This document shows positions 3,538 through 62,983 of a stretch of 64,000 nucleotides of DNA, in pieces (position 1 is the stretch's first letter; each line of letters begins with the position of its first letter). The stretch comes from Rufibacter psychrotolerans (lineage in GTDB: Bacteria > Bacteroidota > Bacteroidia > Cytophagales > Hymenobacteraceae), in contig NZ_JAFFJV010000008.1 in assembly GCF_016924645.1 (NCBI RefSeq), positions 62,001 to 126,000 on the forward strand, in the 5' to 3' direction. Position numbers and translations under genes: made by a program. The notes beneath the pieces are model-generated. The model was not told the DNA's origin. It saw only the letters and a list, made by a program, of their open reading frames with translations, and ran no database searches.

Positions 3538-3933
3538 CTACTCTTGAGTGGTTTTGCGCCGAATTTTGAGTTTTTCTGGCGAAACGGAGATAATCTCCAG
3601 CACCTCGGGCTTATGCTTGGGGTTGTCAAAGGTGACGCGCAGCTGGTCTTTGCCCGAGGCCTCCCATTTGCCGGGTTGTTCTTCCAGGCCATCGGCGGGG
3701 GCAATGCCGTAGCGCGTGAACCTGCCGTCTTCCTGCAGCAGGAAGCCGGTGCGCCCGCGCGAGGGCGGGAAATCAAAGGTGTTGGGGCGGTAGGTCCGCA
3801 CATCGGCGGAGTCCTCTTCATAGGAGTACAGCCAGGTCTGGCCGTACACCGTGGCCGGCAAATCTGGCCGGGCCCCGCATTTGGTACCCATGAGCACCAG
3901 CGCCCCCAAACCCAACAGAAATGATTTTTTCAT
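3538..3933 (-). CDS. Small exported protein of unknown function (131 aa)
   Basis: The protein begins MKKSFLLGLGALVLMGTKCG, a signal peptide with a Cys at residue 19. The residues before that Cys (GTK) fit the lipobox poorly, so lipidation is uncertain. The mature domain resembles small periplasmic lipocalin-like or copper-resistance-NlpE-like proteins in general layout (FLLQEDGRFTRYGI, GKWEASGKDQLRVTF, ending in a basic strand), a pattern seen in many Bacteroidetes 'lipocalin-like' lipoproteins. I infer a small beta-barrel or sandwich. The start at 3933 is chosen because it puts MKKSFLL at the N-terminus; an upstream ATG (3957) would add 8 charged residues before it. Confidence 0.75.
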   Translation of the reverse strand: MKKSFLLGLGALVLMGTKCGARPDLPATVYGQTWLYSYEEDSADVRTYRPNTFDFPPSRGRTGFLLQEDGRFTRYGIAPADGLEEQPGKWEASGKDQLRVTFDNPKHKPEVLEIISVSPEKLKIRRKTTQE

Positions 3934-3993
3934 GCGTTTATCGGCTTGCCCGTGCATTCACCCACCGGCAATCCTGGCACAATATAAGAAATA

Positions 3994-4189
3994 GTCCTGA
4001 GTTCTGAGTCCAGAGTCCTGAGTTGGCAAAATCACCCGGAATCCCGGCCAGCCTCAGCCATGAGGGCTTTCCCTTTTTGAGCCCTTTTTCCAGAAACAGG
4101 CCTACATCGGCGGAGCCGAACACATGCTCTGACTCAGGACACAAGACACAAGACTCAAGACTCAGAACTCAAGACTCAAGACTCAGGAC
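3994..4189. repeat. Inverted pair of heptamer arrays
   Basis: Right array 4134-4189: eight consecutive 7-bp units (TCAGGAC, ACAAGAC, ACAAGAC, TCAAGAC, TCAGAAC, TCAAGAC, TCAAGAC, TCAGGAC). Left array 3994-4021: four units GTCCTGA, GTTCTGA, GTCCAGA, GTCCTGA, which are reverse complements of the right-hand units. The two arrays face each other across 112 nt that hold a copy of the palindromic repeat. They lie between the divergent small exported protein and polX. Confidence 0.85.
4075..4106. repeat. Intergenic near-palindrome, copy 2
   Basis: Arms TTTTTGAGCCCTTTTTCC and GAAACAGGCCTA; a degenerate copy placed between the two inverted heptamer arrays. Confidence 0.6.
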
Positions 4190-4209
4190 TAACATACGCC
4201 GTATGTTCC

Positions 4210-4217
4210 TATCTTTG
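4210..4217 (+). promoter_or_regulatory. Candidate -7 element of the polX promoter
   Basis: TATCTTTG matches TAnnTTTG exactly. Transcription from it would begin near 4222-4225, downstream of the ATG at 4203. This supports translation from the GTG at 4245 instead. Confidence 0.5.
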
Positions 4218-4244: not shown

Positions 4245-5957
4245 GTGGAGAATAAAGAACTCATCCGTATGTTCCGGCTCACGGCTTCCCTGATGGAGCT
4301 GCATGACGAGAACCCGTTTAAAATAAGGTCCTACACCAGCGCCGTAATGGTGCTGGAGCGCATAGAATCACCCATCCACCAGATGAGCCAGGCCCAACTG
4401 GAGAAGCTGGACGGCATTGGCAAAGGCATGGCCGCCAAGATCATGGAAGCCATCCAGACCGGTACCCACGCTGATCTGGCCCGCCTTCTGGAGACCACCC
4501 CTGAGGGCGTGGTGCAGATGCTCAACATCAAAGGCATCGGCCCCAAGAAGATCAAAACTATCTGGAAAGACCTGGGCGTGGATACCATTGAACGGCTGCG
4601 CGAGGCCTGCGAGAAAAACGAGGTGTCTAAGCTGAAAGGCTTCGGGGCGAAAACCCAGGAGACCATTCTGCAGGGCCTGCAGTACACCGAGGCCAACAAA
4701 GGCAAGGTGCTCTGGGCCGAGGCAGAACCCCTGGCGCTGGAACTGCTCTCTTTCCTGAAAAACAGGCCAGAAACCACCGCCGCCGAGATTGTGGGCGAGA
4801 TTCGCCGCAACATGGAGACTGTGGAGACCCTGCAGTTCCTGTTGAGTTTGAACGATGACGCCATTTGGCCCAACTTCCTGACCGAACTGCCGGGTATCTC
4901 GCCGCAGGAATCGGTATCCGGGCCGTTTGTGTGGCGTGGACTGGTTGACACGACTGGCCTGAAGGTAGAAGTGCGTTTGGTGCCGGAGCGCCGCTTCGCC
5001 AACCAGGTGTTGTTGTACTCGGCTAATCCGCTCTGGCTCACCCAACCCCTGAACGACAACGGCGACACGCTCATGGCCGAAGCCTACGGCGAACCGGCCG
5101 CTTCTGAGGAGGAAATCTTTCAACGCGTGAACCTGCCCTACATAGCCCCGGAACTGCGCGAAAGCCTGCGCGTGCTGGAACTGGCCCGGGAAAACAAACT
5201 GCCCACGCTACTCACCGATGCAGACCTGAAAGGCACCGTGCACAACCACAGCACCTACTCAGACGGCGCGCACACCCTGGAGCAGATGGCCGTGCACTGC
5301 CAGCAACTGGGCTACCAGTACCTGGGCATCTGCGACCACTCCAAATCGGCGTATTATGCCAACGGATTGAACGAGTTCCGGATCAAGGAACAGCACAAAG
5401 AGATTGACCACCTGAACCAACAGCTGGGACCGTTCCGCATCTTCAAAGGCATTGAGTCTGATATCCTTTCCGATGGCTCCCTGGACTATGACAATGACGT
5501 GCTGGCTTCCTTTGACTTCATTGTGGCCTCCATCCACAGCAACCTGAAAATGGATGTAGTGAAAGCCACAGACCGCTTGCTCACGGCCATTCAGAACCCG
5601 TACACCACTATGCTGGGGCACCCTACCGGCCGCCTGCTGCTGCGCCGCGAAGGTTACCCCATTGACCACAAAGCCGTAATTGACGCCTGCGCCGCCAACC
5701 AGGTGATCATAGAAATCAACGCCAACCCGTGGCGGCTGGACCTGGACTGGCGCTGGGTAGAATACGCCCTCAGCCAGAACGTGCTCCTGAGCATCAATCC
5801 CGATGCCCACAGCATGCGCGGCTACGAAGACATGCGCTACGGCGTGCTGGTAGGCCGTAAAGGCGGCTTAACCCCAGAAATGACCTTCAATGCTAAGACC
5901 CGGGAAGAAGTAGCCACGTATTTCGAGGAACGTAAGCGGGCGAAGGGGATTCTGTAA
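4245..5957 (+). CDS. PolX-family protein: HhH motifs, degenerate polymerase domain, intact PHP domain
   Basis: A 570-residue protein with the PolX layout. A helix-hairpin-helix region spans residues 1-150 (LDGIGKGMAAKI at 55-66, IKGIGPKKIKTI at 95-106, LKGFGAKT at 130-137), followed by a pol-beta-like palm and a C-terminal PHP phosphoesterase. Family members start like MxNKEIARxF, matching VENKELIRMF from the GTG at 4245; an ATG at 4203 lies upstream of a promoter match. The palm lacks the catalytic aspartates: the family motif RRGxETVGDxD reads RRNMETVETLQ (187-197), and the third Asp is Glu242 in VEVR. All nine PHP metal ligands are present (H333, H335, D340, H365, E404, H431, H459, D520, H522). 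Inference: a DNA-repair 3'-5' exonuclease or phosphoesterase without polymerase activity. Confidence 0.9.
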   Translation: MENKELIRMFRLTASLMELHDENPFKIRSYTSAVMVLERIESPIHQMSQAQLEKLDGIGKGMAAKIMEAIQTGTHADLARLLETTPEGVVQMLNIKGIGPKKIKTIWKDLGVDTIERLREACEKNEVSKLKGFGAKTQETILQGLQYTEANKGKVLWAEAEPLALELLSFLKNRPETTAAEIVGEIRRNMETVETLQFLLSLNDDAIWPNFLTELPGISPQESVSGPFVWRGLVDTTGLKVEVRLVPERRFANQVLLYSANPLWLTQPLNDNGDTLMAEAYGEPAASEEEIFQRVNLPYIAPELRESLRVLELARENKLPTLLTDADLKGTVHNHSTYSDGAHTLEQMAVHCQQLGYQYLGICDHSKSAYYANGLNEFRIKEQHKEIDHLNQQLGPFRIFKGIESDILSDGSLDYDNDVLASFDFIVASIHSNLKMDVVKATDRLLTAIQNPYTTMLGHPTGRLLLRREGYPIDHKAVIDACAANQVIIEINANPWRLDLDWRWVEYALSQNVLLSINPDAHSMRGYEDMRYGVLVGRKGGLTPEMTFNAKTREEVATYFEERKRAKGIL

Positions 5958-19485: not shown

Positions 19486-19504
19486 TTGGTGTTAGGTTTT
19501 CTGC

Positions 19505-19708
19505 CGCTGGCGCGAGCTTGCAGCTCGTGTCCGCACGTATTTCTGATGACTAATTATGGACATCCTGAAAGGATCTTGTGTGCGAACTAATAAAGCCTTT
19601 CCAAGCGGTACTACTGTTGGCAACCAAGATCTTTCCAAGATGACATTGAGAGGATGAATAATGTATGCAGGAATGCGTGCGGACACGAGCTGCAAGCTCG
19701 CGCCAGCG
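19505..19708. repeat. Nested inverted-repeat element D
   Basis: Outer arms 19505-19541 and 19672-19708 (CGCTGGCGCGAGCTTGCAGC and its inverse), inner arms about 19561-19587 and 19620-19645 (CATCCTGAAAGGATCTTG and CAAGATCTTTCCAAGATG). It fills nearly the whole argF'-argB gap. Confidence 0.88.
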
Positions 19709-19715
19709 ACTCCTT

Positions 19716-24323: not shown

Positions 24324-24329
24324 GTTGGT

Positions 24330-24441
24330 AATGAGTGATTGAGAGAATGAATTTTATTGGATGATTGAGTGATTGCATGATTGAGAGAATGAGTAAAATA
24401 GAATCTATTCACTCATTCTCTCAATCATTTAATCACTCATT
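24330..24441. repeat. Inverted pair of octamer-like arrays between argG and the GNAT gene
   Basis: Left part includes TGATTGAG, TGATTGCA, TGATTGAG, AGAATGAG (24362-24393), preceded by a shorter relative at 24330-24350. The right part (24409-24441) is their inverse, CACTCATTCTCTCAATCATT and AATCACTCATTG. The GNAT stop codon (24433-24435) lies inside it. Confidence 0.8.
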
Positions 24442-60545: not shown

Positions 60546-60621
60546 GTTAAAAGGAAAGAGAGACAGATCAGCCCACCAACGCTACTGCCTTGCAACGCTC
60601 CTTCACCTATTCGCACAAGCA

Positions 60622-60653
60622 CCCAATCACTCATTCACACATTCACTCAGGAC
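60622..60653. repeat. Octamer-like array at the end of the GAF-domain gene
   Basis: CCCAATCA, CTCATTCA, CACATTCA, CTCAGGAC; the GAF gene stop codon (60647-60649) lies in the last unit. Confidence 0.6.
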
Positions 60654-62983
60654 TTTACCTTTACCCGCAGCGCTTTGAGGCCGCTTACGCCCTGCAGGTC
60701 TTCTACTTCTACCTGCTCAATTTCCTCGGTGAGCACGCCTTTGTTCTGGAGGTACTCAATGTACTCCAGGTACTCGTTGGCCTCGCGGGCCTGGGAGTAC
60801 ACAATGGCCACTTTGCCGGGCTGGGTGAGGCGTTCCTCCGTATCGCGGATCATGGCTTTGTCAATGCGTTTTTTCACAATCTCATAGCGGATGTTGTAGG
60901 CCCCGTCTACGTCAAACTTACGCTCGTCTTGCCTGAACCGGATGGCCAGGGGCTGGCTGTGGATCAGGATGAGTTGGGTGGTATCCAGCGGCACCTGGAG
61001 TTTGGGTTTGAGGGCCAGGGTACGGCGGGTAATCTCGCACACCACCATGAGCTGCCACAGGCGCAGGTTGCGCAGGAACATCAGGTCGAACGGCTTGTTT
61101 TCCACCAAGGACTGGCCCACGTAGATGTTGAACTCCACGCCATCGGTCACGAAACGCTCAAAGTAGTGCGGAAACATCTGCTGGGCCTGCAGCTCTTCCT
61201 GTTCCACGTACTCAGAAATGGTCTCGTTGATGAGCGTGAGGCTTTCTTCAAAGGCCTTGCGGCGCTTGTACAAAATGCCCAGGGCCGGGTCCATGGAACT
61301 GCGGTAGTCCTGGATGTGGGCTACCAGTTCGGGGTGCGTGGCCTCCAGGAACTGGAACATGGGCTCTACCTGGGTGCGCAGCGTCTCAAAAATGGTAATG
61401 CCGTCCTGCACCAGAACGCCTTTCTTGAGCTGCCGCAGGTGCTTTGACACCGAGAACCTGAGTTCATCCAGGATGGGCAGGGAATGCACTTCCACCGCTT
61501 TCTTCAGGATGCGCTCTGCCAATTGCAGGTGCTCCACCAAATCGCCCAGAATGGCGGCGTTCCGCTCGGTGCTGGAGCCGCGCACGTCGGCCACGGCGTA
61601 GAGCGGGTACACGTCTGGAAACACAATGGGCTCCATCTCGGGGGTAGGGCTGATGGGCGAGGCGTTGATCTTGTCCAGCAGGTTGAGGGCGGCTTCCCTG
61701 AACCGCCACTCCAGCACCGGGTGAATGGCCGTAAACTTCTCCCGGATCACCGACTGTACCCGCGCCTCAATCTCTTCTGAGTTTCGGTTTACCGCCACGG
61801 AGAACAGCGGCAGGAACTGCTCCACTTTGGCAATGGAGAAGGTGTCCAGGTCGCCGGCGTTGGGCGAACCCAGCTCCAGGATGCCGATGGGCTCATTGCC
61901 GTAGCGCAGCAGGGCCAGCACAATGTTCTTGATGCCCATGCTCAGCATTTCCTCGCGTACGCCGGCGGGAAGCTGGTCGGTGGTTTCCACGTTCTTGATC
62001 ACCAGCGGATCGCCCTCGCGCACCAGCTCGTCATAAATGGCCTTGAAACCCGCGTAGCTGGAGCTGGTCACCTCACTCTGCAGCAAGAAACTGTGGTTGA
62101 TCTTGTTCCCGAAGTTCACGAACGTGCTCTTGTTCTTGTGGAAAGCCGCCACTCCCAACTGCAAATGCGGCCGCTTGAAGAGAATCCTGATCTTTTCCTG
62201 CAGCTGCTCAAAGCGGTCGGGTGCCAGCATGACGTCGCGCTCCAGCAGGTCGTTCTTGAGCGAGGAGAGCACTTCCTGGTCGGTGACGTCTACCAGGTTC
62301 ATGATGTAGAAGCCGCTCACCTCAAAGTTCTGGGGCGGCAGCAACTGCATCCAGATGTCCATGTCCCGGATGTTGTCCAGCATGGTCTGGAGGTCATCGG
62401 GCGTAAGCTGAGGCAGTGGTTCCAGCGGTACTATCTCCAGGAACTGGGTGTTGAGCACCACGTTGTAGTGGCGGTACAGGCCCAGCTGGTAATCGGGCAC
62501 GGTGTAAATCAAAAATTCCTCGTGCGGCACCTGTACCTGGTAAAACTTCTCCAGAATCATGAGGTACATCATGCGTACCCGGTTGAAGAGCATCTGGTGC
62601 TCGTCAATGTTGAGGGGGCGCTTGAGGTGGTTGTTGTCCGTAAGGATGATCTGCTTGAATGGCTGCGTGTGGTAGAAGCTGGCATCATAGCGGGGGCCCA
62701 CCGCGCCGCTGGCCTCTGAGTTATGGGTGGCCGGCGGGAAAATGGCTGTCATCAGAAAATCAATGAGGCATTGGTGGCGCTCCTCCAGGACCGACAGATC
62801 CGTGATGGGCTCCTGCAGCTCGGGCAGCTCGTTCAACTGCCGGTAGATCTCCTGTGAAGAAAGCATGAAGCTGCTCTTGCAGTCGTCCTTGAACTGCAGC
62901 CAATACGAAATAATGGGTTTAAGGCTCAGATAAGCCTTAAAGGGAAAAGACGAAACACTGATCTGGTAATCTTTAGACGGCAT
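60647..62983 (-). CDS. Large GAF-domain protein of a Bacteroidetes-specific family
   Basis: A 778-residue soluble protein without signal peptide. The GAF-like fold is suggested by residues ~240-400 (with MGIKNIVLALLRYGNEPIGILELGS near 346-370, written as blocks). The family block YPLYAVADVRGSSTERNAA near 460-478 is shared by Bacteroidetes GAF proteins of about 790 residues, as I remember them. A regulator or second-messenger sensor is possible, but no output domain such as HATPase or GGDEF was seen. Partner genes are not identified. Confidence 0.78.
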   Translation of the reverse strand: MPSKDYQISVSSFPFKAYLSLKPIISYWLQFKDDCKSSFMLSSQEIYRQLNELPELQEPITDLSVLEERHQCLIDFLMTAIFPPATHNSEASGAVGPRYDASFYHTQPFKQIILTDNNHLKRPLNIDEHQMLFNRVRMMYLMILEKFYQVQVPHEEFLIYTVPDYQLGLYRHYNVVLNTQFLEIVPLEPLPQLTPDDLQTMLDNIRDMDIWMQLLPPQNFEVSGFYIMNLVDVTDQEVLSSLKNDLLERDVMLAPDRFEQLQEKIRILFKRPHLQLGVAAFHKNKSTFVNFGNKINHSFLLQSEVTSSSYAGFKAIYDELVREGDPLVIKNVETTDQLPAGVREEMLSMGIKNIVLALLRYGNEPIGILELGSPNAGDLDTFSIAKVEQFLPLFSVAVNRNSEEIEARVQSVIREKFTAIHPVLEWRFREAALNLLDKINASPISPTPEMEPIVFPDVYPLYAVADVRGSSTERNAAILGDLVEHLQLAERILKKAVEVHSLPILDELRFSVSKHLRQLKKGVLVQDGITIFETLRTQVEPMFQFLEATHPELVAHIQDYRSSMDPALGILYKRRKAFEESLTLINETISEYVEQEELQAQQMFPHYFERFVTDGVEFNIYVGQSLVENKPFDLMFLRNLRLWQLMVVCEITRRTLALKPKLQVPLDTTQLILIHSQPLAIRFRQDERKFDVDGAYNIRYEIVKKRIDKAMIRDTEERLTQPGKVAIVYSQAREANEYLEYIEYLQNKGVLTEEIEQVEVEDLQGVSGLKALRVKVKS

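Follow-up and report, generated by a model that had tools for sequence, protein, structure and literature searches.

The window, a stretch of 64,000 nucleotides from the 5.18-Mb genome of Rufibacter psychrotolerans, contains two arrays of heptamers in the gap between polX and a small divergent gene. The gap and its borders hold the following features.

3538-3957, minus strand: small divergent ORF encoding 139 aa, bordering the array gap on its left
3978-3986, minus strand: TATATTGTG, possible -7 box for the divergent ORF, located beyond the left array, proposed from the sequence
3993-4023, minus strand: left heptamer array, 4.4 units (TRF), the left arm of an inverted repeat
4024-4130, no strand: segment of 107 nt separating the arrays, read from the sequence
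4079-4124, no strand: inner module GAGCCCTTTTTCCAGAAACAGGCC..CATCGGCGGAGCCGAA, delimited by comparison of orthologous gaps
4131-4190, plus strand: right heptamer array, 8.6 units (TRF and lag-7 identity)
4210-4217, plus strand: TATCTTTG, candidate -7 element fitting the Bacteroidota consensus TAnnTTTG, from the sequence
4248-5957, plus strand: polX, encoding the DNA polymerase/3'-5' exonuclease PolX (NCBIfam PolX, 436 bits)

Both arrays have a period of 7 and are free of indels, the left one consisting of AGTCCTG-type units (TRF score 48) and the right one of GACTCAA-type units (TRF score 78). Read on the minus strand, the left array runs ACTCAGG ACTCTGG ACTCAGA ACTCAGG ACT; the right array runs GACTCAG GACACAA GACACAA GACTCAA GACTCAG AACTCAA GACTCAA GACTCAG GACT. 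An earlier note on this DNA had described four units on the left and eight on the right, in an inverted layout and with a strict period despite degenerate units. TRF agreed with its unit counts and, to within one base, with its coordinates, and the two arrays indeed form an inverted repeat of 32 nt with 84% complementarity. The inner segment, which it had put at 112 nt, is 5 nt shorter. The strict period was equally apparent from lag-7 identity, which reached 0.85 over the 60 nt of the right array; when the whole window was randomised 60 times with a first-order Markov model, no 60-nt stretch exceeded 0.57. At the other periods from 4 to 12, identity never rose above 0.62. Chance or a low-complexity artefact is almost certainly not the explanation. 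It is refuted by this excess over the randomised windows and by the recurrence of the arrays at orthologous sites, and nothing was found in its favour. The two facing arrays upstream of polX are thus confirmed as real. A CRISPR array was rejected, as the earlier note had also concluded, since the heptamer units are contiguous and lack unique spacers. A search of Rfam matched no curated family in the arrays or in the segment between them.

The gene downstream of the right array is polX, as had been claimed, and its start was placed at the GTG at 4248, the point from which orthologues agree. The divergent 139-aa ORF had no Pfam or NCBIfam match. TAnnTTTG is the established -7 promoter consensus of Bacteroidota, and the TATCTTTG box, which begins 19 nt past the outer end of the right array, is present in the polX orthologues of Rufibacter, Pontibacter and Adhaeribacter. 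We read TATCTTTG and TATATTGTG as two divergent predicted promoters flanked by the arrays. A perfect dyad, AACATACG-C-CGTATGTT, occupies positions 4191-4207 between the right array and the TATCTTTG box. Its counterpart in relatives is ACATAC..GTATGT or ACATCC..GGATGT; since both sides have changed, the dyad looks like an operator of polX. The arrangement at this gap bears on one account of the arrays, in which they would be multivalent binding sites of a putative trans-acting protein (a regulator or nucleoid protein) that reads the heptamer class and, at polX, acts on both divergent promoters. We consider this account unlikely. In its favour, the right array ends close before TATCTTTG, the left array adjoins TATATTGTG on the other strand, and the TATCTTTG box persists in orthologues.

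The nearest named relatives of the host, judged by polX, are Sabulibacter ruber and Rufibacter species; in the polX tree, S. ruber (L047) nests inside Rufibacter as sister to the window. Most Rufibacter species carry arrays at the polX site. In five orthologous gaps (L049 and L051-L054) both arrays are present, a few hundred bases apart and with differing unit numbers; they stand ~430 nt apart in L050 and ~550 nt apart in L048. Rufibacter roseus (L056) has both arrays in another class, and one gap (L055) has the right array only. The inner module GAGCCCTTTTTCCAGAAACAGGCC..CATCGGCGGAGCCGAA is recognisable between the polX-upstream arrays of several Rufibacter species. Changes in unit number, which the earlier note had suggested looking for between strains, were thus found between species, as slippage predicts. 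In the closest relative, S. ruber, the gap retains only an eroded trace, ACACAAGCCTCATAACT, on the right side, indicating that the arrays are dispensable for the locus to exist and arguing against a protein-binding role at polX. Hymenobacter has short-looped inverted heptamer arrays of other units both upstream and downstream of polX, and Pontibacter has unpaired heptamer arrays downstream of it. The upstream Hymenobacter arrays sit past the -7 box, in the 5' leader, which also counts against the binding-site account.

The heptamer pattern is not confined to this gap. This genome alone had 95 matches, spread over about 40 sites, and the pattern occurred in all 15 other Rufibacter genomes, with 4 to 103 matches each; it was scarce in other genera of Hymenobacteraceae. 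A control with the pattern read backwards gave inflated counts because it still resembles the heptamer, and it was not used as a chance level. The layout had been called unusual and had been tied to polX, and neither description survives: arrays are found genome-wide in 16/16 Rufibacter genomes, and the ~40 sites here carry the same NACTCAR heptamers. The finding that the earlier note had named as its refutation, related strains free of heptamer periodicity both here and elsewhere, was therefore not made. The polX pair is one copy of a dispersed repeat, with nothing special to polX. A scan of 38 fetched loci revealed arrays that are mostly ~31 nt long and end in ACTCAGG or ACTCAGA followed by a last ACT. 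Of 43 arrays, 28 had ACTCAGG as their outermost unit and 29 had ACTCAAG in second place, a non-random order that is not expected from free local slippage. At five loci (L010, L012, L018, L028 and L042) a heptamer array is held within a ~490-bp dispersed repeat with ~170-bp inverted ends, which also contains an outer hairpin, CTCGTAG..CTACGAG.

We then asked how the arrays lie relative to genes, which were called with a simple codon-usage gene finder whose starts are approximate. Fifty of 53 examined arrays were outside predicted genes, and the genes on either side could be divergent, tandem or convergent. Of the neighbouring arrays no more than 700 bp apart, 28 pairs pointed outward and 1 inward (among the matches listed for four genomes). 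Among unpaired arrays, the outer (ACT) end was the one nearer a gene in 21/21 (sign p = 5e-7), with a median distance to the gene of 10 nt from the outer end and 293 nt from the inner end. The polarity rule is clear: the ACT end of an array faces a gene edge. That edge need not be a start. The gene END was faced by 31 of the 52 arrays with a scored outward gene, many of them 0-10 nt from the stop codon, and in one locus (L040) the array itself forms the stop codon. A promoter-specific role was rejected, as gene starts are faced no more often than gene ends, and the fact that most sites are not promoters weighs against protein binding as well. A separate scan of gap ends with rough start calls missed known Rufibacter pairs.

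The repeat comes in several sequence classes. In addition to class A (NACTCAR), NACTGWT and NACTAAY classes were found in several Rufibacter, and a NACTYTT class (class C) in two genomes (G005 and G006); outward pairs of class C also occur in other genera. Several classes coexist within one genome, and yet paired arrays agree: with all non-A classes pooled, 20 outward pairs were class A in both arms, 8 were of another class in both and 0 were mixed (p = 3e-7, among the matches listed for four genomes). Such concordance is what a common reader of the heptamers would impose and so favours the protein-binding account; the coexistence of several classes within one genome speaks against it.

A second orthologous gap allowed class changes to be followed. 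The ccmE-ccmF gap, which on our reading of the two proteins lies between cytochrome c maturation genes, has arrays at the same position in 15/16 Rufibacter genomes, one immediately following the stop codon of the upstream gene, the other only a few nucleotides short of the next start. In G005 and G006, both arms belong to the NACTYTT class, and any similarity of their inner segments to those of class-A genomes is slight or undetectable. By comparison, the cores of the more distant genomes G001 and G007 are still similar to that of the window genome. This pattern points to replacement of the whole set, arrays and core together, at ccmE-ccmF in G005; the case for such a replacement in G006 is weaker, because the core of its near relative G013 has also diverged. 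At both orthologous gaps, polX and ccmE-ccmF, the arrays keep their position, and a change of class affects the two arms together.

Complementary arms could also reflect a functional hairpin, either an RNA stem where the gap is transcribed or a cruciform in the DNA, whose pairing is under selection. Several observations are in line with this. The folded strand of the polX array pair gives a strong predicted stem (z = -6.0, with 0/200 shuffles equally good). At ccmE-ccmF, 88.9% of cells pair compared with 83.7% after shuffling, and 28 cells are changed on both sides compared with 14.5. Arms are complementary across genera despite unrelated units, and one Hymenobacter locus (L092) has 26 consecutive complementary bases. 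However, within class A the ccmE-ccmF arms scored 22.2 with cognate and 22.2 with non-cognate partners, and the class A pairs of the window's own genome scored 23.8 and 23.4, respectively (p = 0.24). The covariation at ccmE-ccmF is therefore real but comes from the class changes, as cognate arms are no better matched within the class. Wobble pairs were not favoured on the transcribed strand (T-G 18, C-A 27), and unit order was unmirrored, with mean z-scores of -0.1 to 0.8 obtained by shuffling the arrays alone and excluding flanking DNA. Furthermore, 21 sites have no partner array, and the polX arrays lie upstream of the presumed start sites. Fine-tuned selection on a hairpin is unsupported, given no cognate excess within a class, no wobble bias and no mirrored order, and we regard a functional hairpin as quite unlikely.

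The arms bear equally on a purely local origin, in which slippage in 7-nt steps would build up each array at its own site and fold-back (quasipalindrome) template switching would generate the array opposite. The dominance of period 7 among tandem repeats, the differences in unit number between species and the mirrored arms at a few loci (L092 and L114) fit such an origin. Against it, the same ordered module is present at many unrelated sites, arrays that have no partner show the same orientation relative to genes, and an arm resembles its own partner no more closely than it does non-cognate arms of its class. The fold-back signature that the earlier note had envisaged was generally not seen: the order of units in one arm is not the mirror image of that in the other, and cognate arms show no more complementarity than do non-cognate ones of the same class. 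We find a purely local origin very improbable.

The polX pair is instead probably a copy of a dispersed, non-coding STRR/MITE-like intergenic repeat of Rufibacter that also undergoes slippage. The basic unit would be a polar module of ~31 bp, made of four heptamers N-ACT-CAR and a final ACT, placed at a gap edge with its ACT end towards the gene. Where both edges of a gap are occupied, inverted outward-facing arrays would result, as at polX. We infer that modules spread by copying to gene edges, and the presence of the same ordered module at many unrelated sites supports this spread. Once in place, arrays, which range from 4 to about 15 units, would lengthen or shorten in 7-nt steps of slippage. 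Both arrays at a site, often with the DNA between them, may be replaced jointly, which would account for the class changes.

Signs of conventional transposition were sought, and their absence counts against the dispersed-repeat reading. Target-site duplications were not found: the best match between flanks averaged 3.0 bp compared with 2.5 bp for non-cognate flanks (p = 0.04), an unconvincing difference. A search of the genome for Y1_Tnp returned two genes only, and the loci fetched around them contained no period-7 ACT arrays. A RAYT/REP link was rejected, since neither Y1_Tnp gene is near an array. Paired sites have inverted ends, but 21 sites have a single array, so that not every copy can be described as a simple element bounded by two terminal inverted repeats.

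Beyond the genus, arrays bracket the ccmE-ccmF gap in most of the family. In other genera this gap has inverted period-7 arrays of AACTCAT, AATTATT or AATTCAG, and in some it is bracketed by AACTTTCT-like octamers. Only a few nucleotides separate ccmE and ccmF in one genome (G020), which represents an empty state, and no clear arrays were seen at the gap in two others (G029 and G036). Because the position is conserved across the whole family, beyond what would be expected of purely neutral DNA, the array position conserved across Hymenobacteraceae possibly has a function. Conservation of array sites over the family is likewise in keeping with a binding protein. It is conceivable, and we offer this tentatively, that a class-specific system (a recombinase, a mobile module or a binding protein) places or rewrites gap-edge arrays across Hymenobacteraceae, both together. 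If so, position and polarity would be inherited, and turnover would affect the sequence and even the period (7 or 8). The arrays across the family may represent either one element lineage or repeated independent origins.

Dispersed heptamer arrays have precedents. The short tandemly repeated repetitive (STRR) sequences of cyanobacteria are short tandem heptamers dispersed in gaps, with several unit classes per genome. The polX arrays resemble them in being tandem, with degenerate units and a strict period, and in belonging to ~40 dispersed sites mainly between genes; to our knowledge, inverted bracketing of gaps with a gene-facing polarity is not part of the STRR description. The Rufibacter repeat also resembles MITE and REP/BIME elements in being dispersed, non-coding, intergenic and often palindromic, and the 490-bp repeat with 170-bp inverted ends that contains an array in this genome is MITE-like. 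Unlike MITE and REP/BIME elements, however, it has no target-site duplication, no linked Y1_Tnp, variable cores and single-ended copies.

Xanthomonas, a bacterium unrelated to Rufibacter, provides a close parallel. According to the part of the account available to us (Rehm et al. 2015, PMC4692102), its GGGAATC heptamer arrays are dispersed, mainly intergenic and mostly of about four units, lie close to the preceding gene (on average 28 nt, compared with 160 nt downstream), and form inverted pairs with one array per strand, of which there are 70 and 75 in two genomes. Rufibacter similarly has close opposite-strand pairs, 28 of them outward among the matches listed for four genomes. The Xanthomonas unit, by contrast, is a G-rich GGGANTN for which a quadruplex has been proposed, and NACTCAR has no run of three G; class concordance and orthologous class change are not described in that part of the account (PMC4692102). 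The Calothrix heptanucleotides, which belong to the cyanobacterial STRR, are also cited there (PMC4692102).

TAACTGA direct repeats have been described in Beggiatoaceae, cyanobacteria and five Bacteroidetes (MacGregor 2015, PMC4679880). These arrays have few units, lie in gaps very near start codons, are split by related heptamers and are patchily distributed; they are almost always single and oriented to the downstream start codon, with one inverted repeat only in the main genome (PMC4679880). The NACTGAT class of R. roseus is nearly the same heptamer. The polX unit, however, is GACTCAA/G, and Rufibacter arrays face starts and stops alike. A survey cited there reportedly found heptamers to be the most abundant class in most genomes and proposed polymerase slippage as the cause (PMC4679880).

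Since dispersed heptamer arrays and inverted pairs are known elsewhere, the Rufibacter arrays belong to that kind. By analogy, the best reading is that they work like cyanobacterial STRR, the inverted GGGAATC arrays of Xanthomonas or spacer-filling MITE/BIME elements. In the open-access texts that were searched we found no description of single arrays being oriented towards genes, of paired arrays sharing a class or of both arrays changing class together at orthologous gaps. Reports of short heptamer arrays in cyanobacteria, Xanthomonas and Beggiatoaceae go back decades, but there is still no agreement on how they arise or what they do. In Rufibacter and related bacteria the problem becomes tractable, as the ccmE-ccmF and polX gaps can be followed through many genomes, the polarity rule is clear and the repeat type switches jointly in the two arms, and array origin, spread and replacement are directly testable in Rufibacter by comparison and laboratory passage.

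Other repeats were observed in and around the window. A second bracketed gap has inverted octamer arrays (TGATTGAG / CTCATTCT-like) at 24324-24441; they fill the 109-nt gap between genes that, judged by eye, are argininosuccinate-synthase-like and acetyltransferase-like, with the right array overlapping the stop codon of the acetyltransferase-like gene. Positions 60609-60646 hold an octamer array of ~4.8 CACTCATT-like units. A further gap, at 19486-19715, has nearly perfect inverted ends, GCTGGCGCGAGCTTGCAGCT / AGCTGCAAGCTCGCGCCAGC, that are not of period 7. Runs of the tetranucleotide (ACTC)n occur just outside the window (contig C27 of the host genome, G000, 61481-61523), on other contigs and in most of the listed Rufibacter genomes, and matches in a period-8 ACT search of Rufibacter were mostly such runs. 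In Pontibacter mucosus (G071), the same search gave 343 period-8 matches (a raw pattern count), compared with 76 of period 7, and octamer arrays seem to be the commoner form there.
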